Source: a virus. Taken from it: DNA of 23,807 nt. The stretch is taken from positions 1-23,807 of the IMG/VR virus record IMGVR_UViG_3300020445_000077; one strand, written 5' to 3'. Positions 1,954-8,708 of the stretch are shown piece after piece; the first letter of the stretch is position 1; each line of letters starts with the position of its first letter. The notes beneath the pieces were generated by a model. It worked only from the letters and a program-made list of their open reading frames with translations. It was not told where the DNA came from and searched no databases. Made by a program: the position numbers and the translations under genes.

Positions 1954-2332
1954 GTTTCCCTTAAAAGATTATCTAAATGGTGTCAACCTTAAGATGGGTA
2001 AACTTGAGGACAATGAACGTGCCATGAAGAAGTATCCAAAATATGTTGTTAACAAGATGTTATCTGGACATGTAGATTGCATCATGCATGTCAATGAAAT
2101 GAACCGATATTACAGTCTTGACAACGCTCTCCAATATCATTATTTTCTATATAGTATTAGGAAATCGAAGAGATTTTCTCCTTGGCACAAACAATCGACT
2201 GATAATGATTTGGAACTGGTGAAACAGTTTTATGGTTATAGCAATGAGAAGGCACGAACTGCTCTTTCTATTCTGACGAAAGAAGAATTAAAGGTCATCA
2301 AAGCGAAACTTGATACTGGAGGAATAAAATGA
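1940..2332 (+). CDS. 62: Sliding clamp loader small subunit gp62
   Basis: A 130-residue protein recognised as the cyanophage form of gp62, which joins a gp44 tetramer to open and load the gp45 clamp. Diagnostic stretches are PKYVVNKMLSGHVDC, the NALQYHYFLYSIRKSKRFSPW segment (parallel to the FNYLMAAVPRGKRYGKW region of T4 gp62) and a short C-terminal helical part. It is shorter than T4 gp62 (187 residues), as is usual in marine relatives. The ATG at 1940 lies within the end of the methylase gene. The stop overlaps the regA start as ATGA. In T4, gp62 directly follows gp44; here two accessory genes separate them. Confidence 0.85.
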   Translation: MAEFEFPLKDYLNGVNLKMGKLEDNERAMKKYPKYVVNKMLSGHVDCIMHVNEMNRYYSLDNALQYHYFLYSIRKSKRFSPWHKQSTDNDLELVKQFYGYSNEKARTALSILTKEELKVIKAKLDTGGIK

Positions 2333-2742
2333 GTGACGAGATCAACTGGTCTCAAGATATGATGCTTGAGGTTTCATTAAAAGAACCTGATGACTTTCTC
2401 AAAATACGAGAGACACTTACTAGAATAGGTGTAGCATCTCGAAAAGAAAAGAAACTGTATCAGTCTTGCCATATACTACACAAGAAGGGCAAGTATTACA
2501 TAGTTCATTTTAAGGAACTGTTTGCATTAGATGGGAAGCCAGCAAACATAACTAAGAACGACGTAGAACGTAGGAACAGAATTACAAAACTATTATTTGA
2601 CTGGGGTCTGGTAGAACTATCCGAACAACCTACCGAGATAGCACCTCTGAATCAGATAAAGGTATTAAGTTATAAGGATAAGTCAGATTGGACACTAGAA
2701 TCGAAGTATAATATAGGTAAGAAGAAAGTCACTACTGAATAA
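2329..2742 (+). CDS. regA: RegA translational repressor
   Basis: A 137-residue homologue of T4 RegA, a small RNA-binding protein that represses translation of many early mRNAs at their initiation regions, including its own and the clamp-loader genes. The match is strong over EPDDFLKIRETLTRIGVAS, then KKLYQSCHILHKKGKYYIVHFKE, and the DWGLVEL segment, followed by the conserved end KSDWTLESKYNIG. It is slightly longer than T4 RegA (122) because of a short N-terminal addition (MSDEINWSQDM) and a basic tail. The start overlaps the gp62 stop (ATGA) and the stop overlaps the next start (TAATG). It ends the replication part of this operon. Confidence 0.95.
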   Translation: MSDEINWSQDMMLEVSLKEPDDFLKIRETLTRIGVASRKEKKLYQSCHILHKKGKYYIVHFKELFALDGKPANITKNDVERRNRITKLLFDWGLVELSEQPTEIAPLNQIKVLSYKDKSDWTLESKYNIGKKKVTTE

Positions 2743-4196
2743 TGAAATTTCTTGGATTGAGAATCGATGACCACGATTCCAATGTCACTTACACCGACGG
2801 TAAGAAGGTTAAGTATTGTGCAACGGAAAGGTTATACGGTATAAAACATCATGGTTGGGATAACATATGGCAATGGGAAGATGTCCTAAACAAATGGGAT
2901 ATCAAGGTAGAAGATCTTGATGCCATTGCTATCATTACAGACGATATAAACTTCGAAGAAGGAGAATCGTATAGAGAATTAGATATGGGGTTTCCCTGCA
3001 GAACATTTGCAGTAGACCACCACTATGCACATCACTTAAGCATCTGGCCAGTTGGGGAAGTACCTCACACTGGCTATGTTTATGATGGGTATGGTAACGA
3101 TAATCATTCATTCTCTCTGATACAGGGTGAAAAGGTATCAATAACACATGATGCAGAGGAGTATGGATCCATCGGTACAGAGATGGCAAATGTTGGTATA
3201 CAGGTAGGACTTAAAGCAGATCCACAGGGGTTAGATTTAGCAGGTAAAGTCATGGGACTTGCTGCTTATGGTCTTATAGATAAAGAATATTATGAAAAGA
3301 TATCTCAGCATGGGTTTGTAGATATAAAACGTATATGGAACTACAAATCATGGACTAGGAAGTGGGATAATGATTTCGATATTAATTGGTTGAGGACAGT
3401 ACATGAATACACTGGAGACCAGCTTGCTCTTTTTCTCTCTCATCCCGTTGGTGGTGATGACATCATTGGGTATAGTGGTGGTGTTGCACAGAATTGCAAC
3501 TTTAACGGTAAGATCCGTAAAACAGGTCAAGGAGTCTTAATACCTCCTCATGCAAATGACTGTGGTCTATCCTTAGGAGCAGTAGAATTTTTAAGAAGAA
3601 GGTTCCATGAAGAACCATTTAGTAATGAAGGGTTCCCATTCTGGCAGGATGATGAAGCACCAGAAGAAGAACCAGATGATAGGACTATAGAGAAGGCAGC
3701 TATCTCATTACGGGATGGTCATATACTAGCTTGGTATCAGGGACATGGAGAGATTGGTCCCCGTGCTCTTGGGCATAGAAGTATTTTGATGTCAGCGAGG
3801 AACCGCAGGGCCAAGTTACATTTAAACAGAGAGGTCAAGCATAGAGAGCATTTCAGACCATTTGGTGCTGCTGTACTGAAGGAAGATACCTCTAAGTATT
3901 TTGATTACGATGGTGACTCCCCGTACATGAACACATCAGTACCCGTATTAGATGAAGGTCTCTCATCTGTCACACATGTAGATGGTTCTTGTAGGATTCA
4001 GACAGTTGATGGTGATGATAGTTTTGCTAGACTCTTAAGGAAATATAAAGAGATGACAGGTGATTCTGTTATACTTAATACTTCCTTAAACATCTCTGGA
4101 TCCCCTATTGCATCTAGGATCTGGGAGGCAAAGGAGATGTTCTCTAAGAAGGGAATTAATACCATGGTAATAGGTAATAATTTATTTGATAAATAG
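2742..4196 (+). CDS. NodU/CmcH-family carbamoyltransferase
   Basis: A 484-residue protein of the NodU/CmcH/TobZ carbamoyltransferase family. These enzymes make carbamoyl-adenylate from carbamoyl phosphate and ATP, then pass the carbamoyl group to a hydroxyl of a sugar or antibiotic. Visible landmarks are HDS (11-13), the metal-site histidines of DHHYAHHLS (about 91-99), LDLAGKVMGLAAYG, GYSGGVAQNCNFNGK (about 244-258), GEIGPRALGHRSILMS (about 336-351), REHFRPFGAAVL, and the C-terminal NTSLNISGSPI. The set spans both the Kae1-like N-terminal and the YrdC-like C-terminal halves, so it looks complete. The acceptor is unknown; a phage or host surface glycan, or a modified base, are possible. It begins in the regA stop codon and is the last gene of the operon. 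Confidence 0.85.
   Translation: MKFLGLRIDDHDSNVTYTDGKKVKYCATERLYGIKHHGWDNIWQWEDVLNKWDIKVEDLDAIAIITDDINFEEGESYRELDMGFPCRTFAVDHHYAHHLSIWPVGEVPHTGYVYDGYGNDNHSFSLIQGEKVSITHDAEEYGSIGTEMANVGIQVGLKADPQGLDLAGKVMGLAAYGLIDKEYYEKISQHGFVDIKRIWNYKSWTRKWDNDFDINWLRTVHEYTGDQLALFLSHPVGGDDIIGYSGGVAQNCNFNGKIRKTGQGVLIPPHANDCGLSLGAVEFLRRRFHEEPFSNEGFPFWQDDEAPEEEPDDRTIEKAAISLRDGHILAWYQGHGEIGPRALGHRSILMSARNRRAKLHLNREVKHREHFRPFGAAVLKEDTSKYFDYDGDSPYMNTSVPVLDEGLSSVTHVDGSCRIQTVDGDDSFARLLRKYKEMTGDSVILNTSLNISGSPIASRIWEAKEMFSKKGINTMVIGNNLFDK
4188..4195 (+). promoter_or_regulatory. Late promoter-like element GATAAATA
   Basis: GATAAATA overlaps the carbamoyltransferase stop codon and lies 24 bases before the next ATG at 4220. 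It fits the NATAAATA form of the T4-like late promoter. The predicted start near 4201 gives a leader of about 20 bases without a clear Shine-Dalgarno. No other promoter is evident for the 4220-6538 gene block. Confidence 0.45.
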
Positions 4197-4219
4197 GGCT
4201 GAAGCAATCCTCTATATAG

Positions 4220-4645
4220 ATGACAGAAGAAATAAAAGAAGATGTCAAAGAACCTAAGAAGAAAGGTTTCTTTGGTAAAGCTAAAGCCGCTATTCTTCCT
4301 GACCCTGAAGAGCAAGCAGCAATCATCTCTACAATGGTCAGAATCACAGTCCTGGCCTGGTCTGGTGGGATATTAACTTTAAACTATGTTGCCATACCTG
4401 GTATCCCTCAACAGAAAATAGATCCAACATTTATAGCTTCGGTTTTTACTGGAGTTTTAGCTAGCTTCGGAATTCAGACTGCATCTAAGAAGGGTGATGG
4501 TACTATGAAGATGAATGGTAATGGTAACGGTAATGGAGTTGGTAAGAACGGTGGTCCTACACAGACTATTGTTATAGAACAGGCACCATTAAAAATTATT
4601 GCTGAGTCACCTAAGAAAGACACAGATAAGAAATACACATTATAA
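4220..4645 (+). CDS. Small membrane protein with Asn-Gly repeat (holin-like in layout)
   Basis: A 141-residue protein I do not recognise at family level. It starts with a charged, lysine-rich segment, followed by two hydrophobic stretches that could span the membrane (about 40-60, RITVLAWSGGILTLNYVAI, and about 72-86, FIASVFTGVLASFGI). Next is a low-complexity NGNGNGNGVGKNGG run and a polar tail ending in lysines. Two membrane segments with a charged tail would suit a holin or another inner-membrane protein, but nothing proves this. The ATG at 4220 has no good Shine-Dalgarno and sits just after a late-promoter-like site, so late expression is likely. It heads a block of five small genes. Confidence 0.65.
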   Translation: MTEEIKEDVKEPKKKGFFGKAKAAILPDPEEQAAIISTMVRITVLAWSGGILTLNYVAIPGIPQQKIDPTFIASVFTGVLASFGIQTASKKGDGTMKMNGNGNGNGVGKNGGPTQTIVIEQAPLKIIAESPKKDTDKKYTL

Positions 4646-4658
4646 ACTTGAGGTTATT

Positions 4659-5255
4659 ATGGAAAAGATTAATTGGACAAAATGGATTGCTGTGGGAGCA
4701 GGTGCTGTTCTAGGTGTCTCACATATAGGTATGATAGGTCTGCTTGCTACTCGACAAGAGAGCAAGTTTCCTACTCTTCCTACAGGAGACTATACTTCTT
4801 ATCAGATACAGTCAGGTGCTGAAGGATATACGATCAATTACAGAGCGAATGATCCTTTACGTTTGACAACCATTAAAGACATCAAGAAGAAGGGTGGTTT
4901 CTTAGGACTAGCAAACAACACTACAAAAGTCCGAGAAGAATATGTAATGGATGGGGCTAAGCATCAAGGTGGTCCTGTATCTAACCACAGATCTTGGCAA
5001 GATCCTTCTACTATGAGGGAGGCATCATCGGGGGGAAACCTCAGTGACAAAACTGTGGAATGTATCGAAGCAATCGGTGGAGGAAAGAACACAGGTAGGC
5101 TCGTTGGTACATCAGTTGGTACTGCTGCTGCTCCTGCTCTGTCTGGTATCCCCTTTGTTGGTTGGGTTGCTGCTGGTTGGGTGGCAATGTTTGGTGGCAA
5201 TCAGGGTGCTGACATAGGTGGTAACATGGCAGAGGAAATGAGTCGGGATTGTTAA
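4659..5255 (+). CDS. Glycine-rich membrane-associated protein of unknown function
   Basis: A 198-residue protein. I chose ATG 4659 over the upstream in-frame ATG at 4599 because GAGG sits correctly before it and 4599 lies within the previous gene. The N-terminus WTKWIAVGAGAVLGVSHIGMIGLLA is an uncleaved signal anchor or a single membrane span. A polar middle follows (SYQIQSGAEGYTINYRANDP). Near the C-terminus is a glycine/alanine-rich hydrophobic stretch, VGTAAAPALSGIPFVGWVAAG, that resembles glycine-zipper membrane segments. The protein probably sits in the inner membrane with a periplasmic domain, or in the virion. Its neighbours are also membrane-type proteins, which suggests a shared envelope role. 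Confidence 0.7.
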   Translation: MEKINWTKWIAVGAGAVLGVSHIGMIGLLATRQESKFPTLPTGDYTSYQIQSGAEGYTINYRANDPLRLTTIKDIKKKGGFLGLANNTTKVREEYVMDGAKHQGGPVSNHRSWQDPSTMREASSGGNLSDKTVECIEAIGGGKNTGRLVGTSVGTAAAPALSGIPFVGWVAAGWVAMFGGNQGADIGGNMAEEMSRDC

Positions 5256-5264
5256 TACATACTA

Positions 5265-5492
5265 TTGTATGCTACAATACCCTCAGTGGATTATAATGAT
5301 GTTATACCATATCATGAACTCCTACTAATAAACGAAGAACTGGAACGTATGAATCACATATACCAGGAAGAAATCGAAATACAAGTCAAGACTATTGACG
5401 AATTAAAACAGGAAGTAAAATTCCTTAGGAAGCAACTGGAGTATAAGACTCTTGGACCTCCTATTCACTCACAAGATTACAAAGAGGATTGA
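5265..5492 (+). CDS. Small coiled-coil protein, start uncertain
   Basis: A frame of up to 75 codons between two membrane-type genes. The protein is largely helical and acidic. From about residue 20 it shows heptad-like spacing typical of a coiled coil (LLLINEELERMNHIYQEE, then VKTIDELKQEVKFLRKQLE), so it may oligomerise or bind a partner. The start is not settled: TTG 5265 gives the longest form, GTG 5286 and ATG 5349 are in frame, and none has a convincing Shine-Dalgarno. I have no family name for it. The stop at 5490-5492 directly precedes the ATG at 5495. Confidence 0.55.
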   Translation: MYATIPSVDYNDVIPYHELLLINEELERMNHIYQEEIEIQVKTIDELKQEVKFLRKQLEYKTLGPPIHSQDYKED

Positions 5493-5494
5493 TC

Positions 5495-5731
5495 ATGGAC
5501 AAAATTTTTAAAGCGATGACTGTAGTATCTTTTGCTACTAGCTCACTCGTTGTTGGAGTCGCAGGCTATACTTACTTTAATCGTACTGCGATTATAGACT
5601 CAGTTAAAGACAGAGCTGCTGAAGAACTTAGTAACATATTACCAGGTTTAGTTAAGGGTTCATTACCTGCAGTACCATCAGTACCTGCACAAACAGGACC
5701 AGCGAACTTCCCTACACCTCCAGCACAGTAA
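5495..5731 (+). CDS. Single-span membrane protein with proline-rich tail
   Basis: A 78-residue protein. ATG 5495 is preferred over TTG 5489 because AGAGGA (5483-5488) is well spaced before it. It has a short basic N-terminus, one hydrophobic span (about 8-26, AMTVVSFATSSLVVGVAGY), an amphipathic helix (IIDSVKDRAAEELSNILPGLV), and a proline/alanine tail ending NFPTPPAQ. The layout resembles small conserved proteins of T4-like cyanophages that I recall without a known function. It abuts the next gene with no gap (TAA then ATG), so the two are probably translated together. Confidence 0.7.
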   Translation: MDKIFKAMTVVSFATSSLVVGVAGYTYFNRTAIIDSVKDRAAEELSNILPGLVKGSLPAVPSVPAQTGPANFPTPPAQ

Positions 5732-6538
5732 ATGACTGACCCTATCAAGGATATATTTGTTAGGGTACAGAGTATTAAACCAGTTCCTGCAGCAAACATA
5801 CCCGAAGTTGATATTGATATCCCTAAAGTTATGATTAGGGGTACCACTTCTGGTGGACAGGTACTAATATATGAGGCTAGACCACCTCTAGTGGGCACTG
5901 TAACAGTCCCAGTCACACAAAACTTAGGCAAACCAATTGTGGACATGCCTGGTTGTGTGGAGGCACACAAGGACAATACAGGTAAGAATGAGAACCTAGT
6001 GGATGATGATCCAAAGGGTGTACAGATTTTTTGTGACGCAGGTACGCCAGCGTTTACTCCTATAGATTACAATAAAGGTGATCTAAAGATGGAGGTGGAA
6101 CCATATGAACCTGACTTTAAGATAGGACCACCTCCACCAGTACCAGAAACACCTGGTATACCAGAGACACCTTGTGTCAGACCTAAGATCAGGGATCCTA
6201 TTACTCAGCAATGTGTAGATCCACCCGAACCTAACCCTGAACCTGTAATAGAGCAACCGCCACCACCTATTGTTATTAGTGATTATGTTCCTGAGCTTTC
6301 TGTGGTCACAACCACAGCAGCAATTGCAACCACAGCAGCAGCGTCAGCATTGTTAGCAAAACCACTTGCTGATTTTCTAATGAAGGTCTTTAAACCTGCT
6401 GCTAAGAAGGCAGTTGCTAAGGTTCAGGCTCTGCTAGGTAAGACTCCTGTCAAACCCAGTAGGAGTGAGATTATTGCTGATGAGTACAGGAAAAAGAAGG
6501 GTCTGTTACCCCTAAAAAAGAAGGGTAAAAAGAAGTAA
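5732..6538 (+). CDS. Proline-rich protein with hydrophobic segment and basic C-terminus
   Basis: A 268-residue protein of unknown function that begins immediately after the previous stop. The first half looks like a beta-rich domain (VMIRGTTSGGQVLIYEARPP, VGTVTVPVTQ). Residues about 125-190 are proline-rich with PPPPVPETPGIPETPC and a second PPPP run. A threonine/alanine hydrophobic stretch follows (ATTAAASALLAKPLADFLM). The end is very basic (KKAVAKVQ, then RKKKGLLPLKKKGKKK). Four cysteines occur in the middle (GCVEAH, IFCDAG, TPCVRP, QCVDPP). A spanning or membrane-anchored virion or envelope protein is plausible. It closes the small-gene block; a late promoter follows. Confidence 0.7.
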   Translation: MTDPIKDIFVRVQSIKPVPAANIPEVDIDIPKVMIRGTTSGGQVLIYEARPPLVGTVTVPVTQNLGKPIVDMPGCVEAHKDNTGKNENLVDDDPKGVQIFCDAGTPAFTPIDYNKGDLKMEVEPYEPDFKIGPPPPVPETPGIPETPCVRPKIRDPITQQCVDPPEPNPEPVIEQPPPPIVISDYVPELSVVTTTAAIATTAAASALLAKPLADFLMKVFKPAAKKAVAKVQALLGKTPVKPSRSEIIADEYRKKKGLLPLKKKGKKK

Positions 6539-6856: not shown

Positions 6857-6883
6857 AAGAGACCCCCTAGGGGGTCTTTTTTA
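6857..6883 (+). terminator. Intrinsic terminator, probably bidirectional
   Basis: AGACCCCC (6860-6867) and its complement GGGGGTCT (6870-6877) form an almost loopless palindrome around TA, extended by A-T pairs. A T-run follows at 6877-6882 on the plus strand. On the minus strand the sequence after the stem is also T-rich. It lies between the stop of the 55-residue gene and the stop of the converging 6881 gene, so it can end both transcripts. Confidence 0.85.
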
Positions 6884-8014
6884 TTTCTTCTTTAGTTCGA
6901 AGTTCTCCCTTGGTCCAAAGTTCTCCCGTTTGATTAGGGTAGCGTTCCCGTCAGCATCATATTCGAATGTAGATACTTCACTACCATTGGTCTTGATCTC
7001 AAACTTGGTTTCTAGGAGAGACTTATTACCATTTGCATCTATCTTATAGGTATTCTCTTGCTTAGGTTCCCAGTTCAGGAAGGTCTGGTCGATACCGTGA
7101 GTGTGTTGCTTAACTATATTCTCATTACCTTTTATAGTATGACTAGCTACGTCTACATCAGCACAAACTTTGGCGTATTGAGACCCAGCCTTAAATGAGA
7201 TGCCAGCCTGTATCAATTGACCACAATTCTTTAGCCTTGCAATCTCAAAGTCTAGACGCTTGTTAGCCAGGATCTGCTGTTGTAAGGCTATCTGTGTATT
7301 AAATGCGTTCTTACAACCTTTCTGTAGTTGTCTGTCTAGTGGTATTGATATGGTAGCACTAAGACCTAACGATACGTTTGTATTATTCTTCTGTCCTGTC
7401 CTTGTTGGAACGTAATAAAGGACTTCACCTGGATTATCTGGTACACCATCATCGTTAGCATCTACGTTGTTGTAGACTGGATCTTGATAGATGTCCTCAT
7501 ATGGATGCTGTTGAGATAACGCTCCTGTAACGAAGGGGGTCACGTTAAGGGTCGGTCCTTGACATGATATACCACCACCATACTGGTTGTTAATATATGG
7601 ACCTTGTAAAACTTGTATTGCCTGGTTGGTAACTGAGCCAGAAGAGTTGGCGATAGGACTAGCAGTAGCCGATACACCACCAACGTCAGTAGCATATGCA
7701 GGAGAACATGTTAGTAATGCTACTACTGGGAGAAGATACTTGTTGTATCTGTTACGCTTGTTATGGTGGTTTCTCTTTGGATCACGGTCTGATTCGAGAT
7801 ACCTGGTCCTTGATATGTATTTGTGAGTTGGAAGGCTGCTCCTGGTGTTGTTATGGTGTAGTCTCCCATCGTCGAGAGATCCAGACCATGAGTGGTTTGG
7901 GGTGTGGTTCCTGAACTTCCGAGAAGGTCTATGCTTCCCGATGAAGTCACTCCATCTGGTAAGATGCTGTCGCCATTGTGGGAAACCCCTGTCCCTGTCA
8001 CTGAATATTGCCAT
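6881..8014 (-). CDS. Exported protein with Ca-binding-like DxNDDG motif; start unresolved
   Basis: The frame is open for 377 codons from the ATG at 8012-8014. Family-like protein begins only at about residue 84, where a basic stretch and a hydrophobic core (YLLPVVALLTCSPAYA, cut expected after AYA-108) form a good signal peptide. The mature part is about 268 residues. It contains a glycine-rich start (NNQYGGGISCQGP), a calcium-loop-like NVDANDDGVPDNPGE (183-197), a helical middle with QIALQQQILANKRLDFEIAR, four cysteines and a polar end with DANGNK and DADGNA. The first 83 or so codons overlap the next gene in another frame and look like its shadow, but no ATG, GTG or TTG occurs in frame between 8014 and the signal peptide. 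Alternative explanations are a -1 ribosomal frameshift from the upstream gene, an unusual start, or an indel. A periplasmic or virion protein is likely. Confidence 0.6.
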   Translation of the reverse strand: MAIFSDRDRGFPQWRQHLTRWSDFIGKHRPSRKFRNHTPNHSWSGSLDDGRLHHNNTRSSLPTHKYISRTRYLESDRDPKRNHHNKRNRYNKYLLPVVALLTCSPAYATDVGGVSATASPIANSSGSVTNQAIQVLQGPYINNQYGGGISCQGPTLNVTPFVTGALSQQHPYEDIYQDPVYNNVDANDDGVPDNPGEVLYYVPTRTGQKNNTNVSLGLSATISIPLDRQLQKGCKNAFNTQIALQQQILANKRLDFEIARLKNCGQLIQAGISFKAGSQYAKVCADVDVASHTIKGNENIVKQHTHGIDQTFLNWEPKQENTYKIDANGNKSLLETKFEIKTNGSEVSTFEYDADGNATLIKRENFGPRENFELKKK

Positions 8015-8175
8015 CCTGTATTATAATCAATTGAGTTTATGGTCTCAGTTACGGTAGATGTAGTCTCCGTATGGCTCGTCATCGAGCCCTGAGTAAAATT
8101 GGGGACCACTGGAACTGCCATCACTGGAGTTCCTAGTGACACGATAGTAAGACTAGCTATAACTACCCGTTTCAT
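7723..8175 (-). CDS. Exported Ser/Thr-rich protein (paralogue of the 8190-8708 product)
   Basis: A 150-residue protein with a clear signal peptide, KRVVIASLTIVSLGTPVMA, cut after AMA-type residues near 20. The mature part is threonine, serine and glycine rich, with no cysteine, and looks beta-structured. Its segment MGDYTITTPGAAFQLTNTYQ parallels AGTYDINTAGSAFSFSETF in the upstream gene product, and YSVTGTGVSHNGD parallels YSVSGNNIKVASAD. The two are therefore probably tandem duplicates. A GGGTGA ribosome site (plus-strand 8185-8190) overlaps the upstream stop. Export suggests the periplasm, the outer membrane or the virion surface; function is unknown. Confidence 0.75.
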   Translation of the reverse strand: MKRVVIASLTIVSLGTPVMAVPVVPNFTQGSMTSHTETTSTVTETINSIDYNTGWQYSVTGTGVSHNGDSILPDGVTSSGSIDLLGSSGTTPQTTHGLDLSTMGDYTITTPGAAFQLTNTYQGPGISNQTVIQRETTITSVTDTTSIFSQ

Positions 8176-8189
8176 TATTATATATCACC

Positions 8190-8708
8190 CTAATTTATAG
8201 TAAGTTCAGATACGAATTGACCTGTAGCTGTTGTGCCCGCCCCTCCAGCTGTTATTGTCATTGCACCTGCTGAGGTTATAGTTCCTGCAAGGGTTCCTGC
8301 GACACCGCCACTTTGAGTAGTCGTATTACCGAAAGCTGGCATGTCTACAACGACACCACTGGATACGTCAACACCTGTACCAATTGGATTTACAGCGTCT
8401 CCTGAAATGAAAGTTTCGCTGAAGCTGAAAGCTGATCCTGCAGTATTAATATCGTATGTACCAGCATCGAGTGTTGCTGCTGCTGTACCGCTAGGTGTTA
8501 CTAGCTTACCAAAGTGATCGTCTGCTGATGCGACTTTGATGTTGTTACCACTTACACTGTAAGTACTTCCGATTCTGGTAGCTTGAGTTGCTGCACCATC
8601 AACACTTAACTGAGTTGATGTAGTTAAACGATGGACCAAGTCCGCCTTTGCAGCACCAGTACCTGTGAACAGCATCCCCATACCCAGAAGTAAAATTAAT
8701 TTCTTCAT
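8190..8708 (-). CDS. Exported Gly/Thr-rich protein, first gene of the minus-strand unit
   Basis: A 172-residue protein with a standard signal peptide (MKKLILLLGMGMLFTGTGAAKA, expected cut near residue 22). The rest is low in charge and rich in Gly, Ala, Thr and Ser, with many short beta-like repeats (GGVAGTLAGTITSAGAMTIT) and no cysteine. This resembles secreted or surface adhesin-like proteins, but I see no named domain. GGAGAA (plus-strand 8711-8716) is a good ribosome site, and a GATAAATA late element lies upstream on the same strand. The next gene starts 15 bases beyond its stop and encodes a related protein, so this is an operon of exported late proteins. Confidence 0.75.
   Translation of the reverse strand: MKKLILLLGMGMLFTGTGAAKADLVHRLTTSTQLSVDGAATQATRIGSTYSVSGNNIKVASADDHFGKLVTPSGTAAATLDAGTYDINTAGSAFSFSETFISGDAVNPIGTGVDVSSGVVVDMPAFGNTTTQSGGVAGTLAGTITSAGAMTITAGGAGTTATGQFVSELTIN

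Follow-up and report, generated by a model that had tools for sequence, protein, structure and literature searches.

A conserved overlapping gene pair in marine cyanophages whose second protein has a predicted signal peptide far downstream of its probable start codon

Introduction

Long tails ahead of an ordinary signal peptide are found in the extended signal peptide regions of autotransporters, in which the extension is a conserved motif. Among phage spanins, 116 o-spanins lie in the -1 frame, and spanin genes have been missed or given wrong starts (Kongari et al. 2018, PMC6139136). In T4-like cyanophages, T4-GCs 218, 219, 234, 235 and 237 form a clustered cassette in all cyanophages compared except S-PM2 (Sullivan et al. 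2010, PMC3037559). The T4-GC 235 and T4-GC 237 families of that study are those treated here; the part of the paper dealing with the cassette lists it without T4-GC 236 and does not discuss an overlap or the start. In the open literature, DUF6322 was found in no paper, and cyanophage, overlapping genes and signal peptide were found jointly in none; PMC10976474 concerns other genes in its available text.

Here, we describe a pair of overlapping genes in a 23.8 kb virus record (IMG/VR IMGVR_UViG_3300020445_000077, positions 1 to 23,807; this whole stretch of DNA is called the window below). The minus strand of the window carries three adjoining exported-looking genes, and the neighbouring genes (DNA polymerase gp43, UvsX, MazG-like and others, from ORFs and the annotation of relatives) are of T4-like cyanophage type.

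Results

The features of the locus are as follows (T4-GC numbers are shortened to GC in the text).

8190..8708, minus strand: T4-GC 237 gene (phrog_564; OMP1 in S-RSM2), exported-looking, upstream of GC236
7723..8175, minus strand: T4-GC 236 gene (DUF6322, PF19847; phrog_650), 150 aa; Pfam E 3.6e-34, PHROGs 2.9e-51
6881..8014, minus strand: T4-GC 235 gene (phrog_848/1755), 377 aa counted from ATG 8014; from profile match and relatives' layout
7723..8014, minus strand: GC235/GC236 dual-coding overlap, 292 nt, GC235 in the -1 frame of GC236
8012..8014, minus strand: proposed GC235 start codon ATG, made of the last base of Gly GGA and the first two of Trp W1
7778..8014, minus strand: GC235 N-terminal tail, 79 residues, spacer-like
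7691..7777, minus strand: GC235 basic n-region KRNHHNKRNRYNKY, hydrophobic core and AYA cleavage site, with the GC236 stop codon inside
6884..7690, minus strand: mature GC235, predicted exported; beta-rich part and 42-residue helix, four family-invariant cysteines
5732..6538, plus strand (opposite): T4-GC 234-like neighbour (phrog_570), context only
4220..4645, plus strand: DUF6450 protein, two hydrophobic stretches, holin-like shape, context only

The 7723-8175 product belongs to DUF6322 (117.7 bits against a gathering cut-off of 30.6, residues 44-150) and has its own signal peptide, MKRVVIASLTIVSLGTPVMA. The 6881-8014 product matches phrog_848 (E 3e-125) and follows GC236 in the same order as in records tagged T4-GC 235. 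The GC235 signal peptide, KYLLPVVALLTCSPAYA followed by TDVGG (about 7741-7688), straddles the TAG of GC236 and lies about 90 residues past ATG 8014. A preliminary description had remarked on this signal peptide without a local start, and indeed no in-frame ATG, GTG or TTG occurs between 8014 and the signal peptide; its further observation that the stretch is coded in another frame by a gene with a natural ending is borne out by the 292-nt overlap and the TAG. The ATG spans Trp codon W1 of GC236 (TGG at 8011-8013), and the nearest upstream stop in the GC235 frame is a TAA at 8021-8023, three codons ahead of it. GC237 and GC236 may be old duplicates, since GC237 matches the DUF6322 of the latter weakly, below threshold (E 0.056).

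By tblastn, GC235 is found in 426/50,697 phage records, nearly all of them Synechococcus or Prochlorococcus phages, with matches reaching the T7-like P-SSP3 and P-SSP7 at 27-28% identity; GC236 and GC235 occur together in both T4-like and T7-like marine cyanophages. The Pfam and PHROGs entries give no function for either. Predicted models (pLDDT 70.7 and pTM 0.35 for mature GC235; 70.9 and 0.37 for GC236) gave no PDB match at E <= 0.001 in a fold search, and a sequence search against solved structures gave no match. Beta-pore names among the GC236 fold matches have E about 1 or worse and are not evidence. An alignment of 36 mature GC235 sequences shows four invariant cysteines, consistent with an exported GC235. 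An AxA-like cleavage site was found in 176/178 GC235 sequences with a permissive pattern of our own, and a second hydrophobic stretch in the GC235 tail in 0/178.

The arrangement was followed through 232 loci with one script; 8 had no anchor and 10 truncated loci were dropped, and the other 214 hold both genes. Removal of identical overlaps left 187, nine of which run off the contig, giving 178 distinct loci with an open upstream side (115 T4-like and 63 T7-like). GC235 lies in the -1 frame of GC236 in 214/214 loci, as it does in 15/15 loci from a separate collection of whole-genome contigs, each of these having an in-frame NTG start. The signal peptide shares its reading frame with GC236 in 0/214 loci, which excludes the indel or local mutation that the preliminary description had offered as an option. 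The window comes from just one contig of a metagenomic virus record, so a sequencing or assembly mistake at this spot, or a start lost by decay, might be suspected; however, two other IMG/VR records (L001 and L002) are identical to it over the junction, P-RSM6 has the same layout at 81% DNA identity, and all 214 loci agree, so that this explanation is already refuted and keeps a negligible probability. When the codons of L001 were shuffled synonymously, the -1 frame was open in 1.4% of 2000 draws (across single loci, the shuffle probability of an open frame ranged from 0.000 to 0.39). Given the two identical records, the constant -1 frame and the shuffle, the layout of the window is beyond chance. 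Judged from these sequences, the predicted export tag of GC235 is written out of frame in the end of GC236, a real and conserved arrangement and no assembly error.

The genome-contig scan found no cellular homologue with a plain start, all 15 loci sharing the -1 layout; by our reckoning, several of these loci are phage contigs in bins. Records titled Nonlabens xiamenensis (L238, a 188 kb contig), Bacteroidetes (L233), Lewinella (L237) and Chloroflexota (L239) also hold GC235 and a -1 partner, and are probably cyanophage contigs placed in the wrong genome or bin. ACG-2014g (about 3001-3201) has an interruption of the GC235 frame after 123 codons, and in its annotation the gene begins downstream.

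An in-frame NTG was present within the open stretch in all 178 distinct loci. In-frame ATG codons occur in 115/115 T4-like loci (exactly one in 114/115) and in 54/63 T7-like loci, the remaining nine having only GTG or TTG. Each of the 188 in-frame ATGs overlaps a GC236 TGG codon, because an ATG in the -1 frame reads xxA TGx, where only Trp or Cys fit. Trp and Cys codons are few in GC236, and therefore the GC235 start must sit far upstream. In T4-like loci, the ATG follows the last stop at a median distance of 4 codons. Two sites account for nearly all T4-like starts: W2, which lies 54-58 codons ahead of the GC236 stop (44/115), and W1, 96-108 codons ahead of it (70/115, the window included); in freshwater DSL-LC03 the start is at a different site, 20 codons ahead of the stop. 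An A precedes the Trp codons used as start in 115/115 cases and unused Trp codons in 6/76.

The base before each Trp codon follows the site in use. In a first set of genomes, A precedes W2 in 45/45 W2 genomes; genomes lacking W2 and having W1 read GGA-TGG in 10/10 cases, and W2 genomes with a Trp at W1 have GGA in 0/11 and GGC or GGT in 11/11. In a larger set, GGA precedes W1 in 68/68 W1-type versus 14/40 W2-type sequences. Between W1 and W2, stops in the -1 frame number 0/3111 codons in the 68 W1-type sequences and 131/1390 in the 40 W2-type sequences (this comparison omits seven of the 115: DSL-LC03, excluded deliberately, and six that lack the N-terminal motif). In a tree built from 116 GC235 rows, the W1/W2 label changes at least three times, two of the changes being forced by starred branches, and the small group of the window lies near W2 rows on an open branch. 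Since the tree needs only three changes, the W1/W2 contrast represents few independent events, and Fisher values that treat the rows as independent overstate it. The GC236 codon six before W1 is Met (ATG) in 37/40 W2-type sequences and Ile or Val in 68/68 W1-type sequences; perhaps a rival upstream ATG has been removed where W1 is the start, and shared ancestry may also account for this pattern.

The preliminary description had listed a -1 frameshift fusing the two products as another option. Such a programmed ribosomal shift, out of GC236 and into the 6881 frame, would suit both a downstream frame that is always -1 to GC236 and the lack, among T4-like loci, of any start next to the signal peptide. 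Frameshifting does not require an ATG, yet an in-frame start is kept in every distinct locus, and it leaves unexplained the moving edge, the frame being open further up exactly where the ATG is further up. XXXYYYZ heptamers occur in only 31/178 overlaps, scattered and with no conserved heptamer; the window overlap has none in frame, in agreement with the preliminary description. A fusion would also be expected to use the GC236 signal peptide and to place the basic-hydrophobic segment inside, against the positive-inside rule. We therefore disfavour frameshifting and regard it as highly improbable.

A normal signal peptide would begin about 10-20 residues ahead of its core, and a non-standard start near it, or re-initiation after the GC236 stop with the upstream open frame incidental, would provide this. 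The preliminary description had proposed looking in homologues for a start near the signal peptide; P-SSP3 and many T7-like relatives do have one 21 codons before the GC236 stop, but the nearest start in T4-like loci is, with one exception, 54-108 codons before it. In the window, the codons near the core, read by eye, offer only AAG as a near-cognate, and such a start would leave the lack of stops between W1 and W2 and the kept ATG unexplained. This option is judged unnecessary and quite improbable. Ordinary initiation at ATG 8014, in a real and conserved overlapping pair with a remote start and no frameshifting, is very probably what these comparisons reflect, which is the option of a true overlap of about 290 bases with an odd N-terminus that the preliminary description had also listed; its interpretation as a whole is partly supported.

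Upstream of W2-type starts, an anti-SD match spans -18 to -14; the mean energy is best at -16 within -60 to +40. These starts carry GGNGTGA at the right spacing, with Val there encoded by GTG in 38/38 cases versus 103/391 elsewhere. W1-type starts, that of the window included, lack an anti-SD match at the usual distance, their best one overlapping the ATG. It is in this missing well-placed match that the case for the window itself is weakest.

Selection in the second frame is concentrated at the end of the overlap. Over the last 16 overlap codons of the 115 T4-like loci, the -1 peptide has a net charge of +4.59, against -0.07 expected from synonymous re-draws; the 63 T7-like loci show a smaller excess over the same codons (2.37 versus 0.97 expected), and T4-like overlap segments further upstream show none by the same re-draws. 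Fourfold-site identity is not raised over the overlap as a whole, which counts against the dual-coding reading (before, middle and end: 0.503, 0.547 and 0.487 in W1-type; 0.368, 0.448 and 0.418 in W2-type) and makes the tail amino acids seem little constrained. As tests of a same-strand overlapping pair, then, the second frame is conserved, open and selected beyond the demands of the first, and raised synonymous-site conservation was not found. With the charge excess confined to the end and fourfold sites not raised, the signal peptide itself is selected in the second frame, and the tail seems only to need staying open, as a spacer.

Discussion

Comparison shows the overlapping layout, the presence of an in-frame start, the openness of the frame and charge selection near the signal peptide, and from these we infer initiation, export and cleavage. 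Translation of GC235 would start within the GC236 gene at ATG 8014, in the -1 frame, the start having been placed on Trp W2, or on W1 once W2 was lost, as in the window. Ribosomes would read about 90 codons, a hydrophilic tail followed by the basic n-region and hydrophobic core across the GC236 stop, and the chain would enter the Sec pathway N-in and be cut after AYA. The pair would provide a clean example in which a first gene limits the start of an overlapping gene to its own Trp and Cys codons, with relatives shifting between two sites.

Gene callers truncate, drop or mis-start one gene of the pair in many cyanophage records. Among 18 annotated records, GC235 is called from the far-upstream start in 11, from after the signal peptide in 6, and is omitted in 1; the annotations of P-RSM6, S-SM2 and S-RSM2 (all W1-type) omit GC236. 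Because of this mishandling, the signal peptide and the fact of export are often lost.

The boldest reading is that GC237, GC236 and GC235 together with the DUF6450 protein form an outer-envelope-disruption (lysis) module replacing spanins, a reinvention of the Rz/Rz1-like layout. GC236, GC235 and DUF6450 are common to T4-like and T7-like cyanophages, and the DUF6450 protein of the window (4220-4645, plus strand) is 49% identical over 89 residues to that of P-SSP7 (L060:2349-2660), both with two hydrophobic stretches. In P-SSP7 (2020-6346), the GC236/GC235 relatives, with DUF6450 adjoining them, lie between the tail-fibre genes and the small terminase, near a 568-aa ORF that matches an endolysin family (E 9.8e-10). 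T7 has lysis genes in that same region. P-SSP7, P-HM1, P-SSM2, S-SM1 and S-SM2 are among the phages listed as spanin-less (Kongari et al. 2018, PMC6139136). Against it stand the lack of a lipobox in GC235 (the o-spanin lipobox of two-component spanins was matched in 1/178 GC235 sequences by our own pattern, GC235 alone being scanned) and of a significant fold match. From sequence and gene order, we consider a lysis role doubtful; if the exported set did act in lysis, it would explain how marine cyanophages without recognised spanins breach the outer membrane. Homology of the 5732-6538 product to P-SSP7 gp42 was considered and is not supported (BLASTP E 0.091).

Of the known systems, autotransporters resemble GC235 in having a long tail ahead of the signal peptide, and differ in that the residues of the GC235 tail look little constrained. 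Rz/Rz1 spanin genes are like GC236/GC235 in encoding two envelope proteins from overlapping frames of the same strand, with the difference that GC235 has an AxA-like cleavage site in place of the lipobox.
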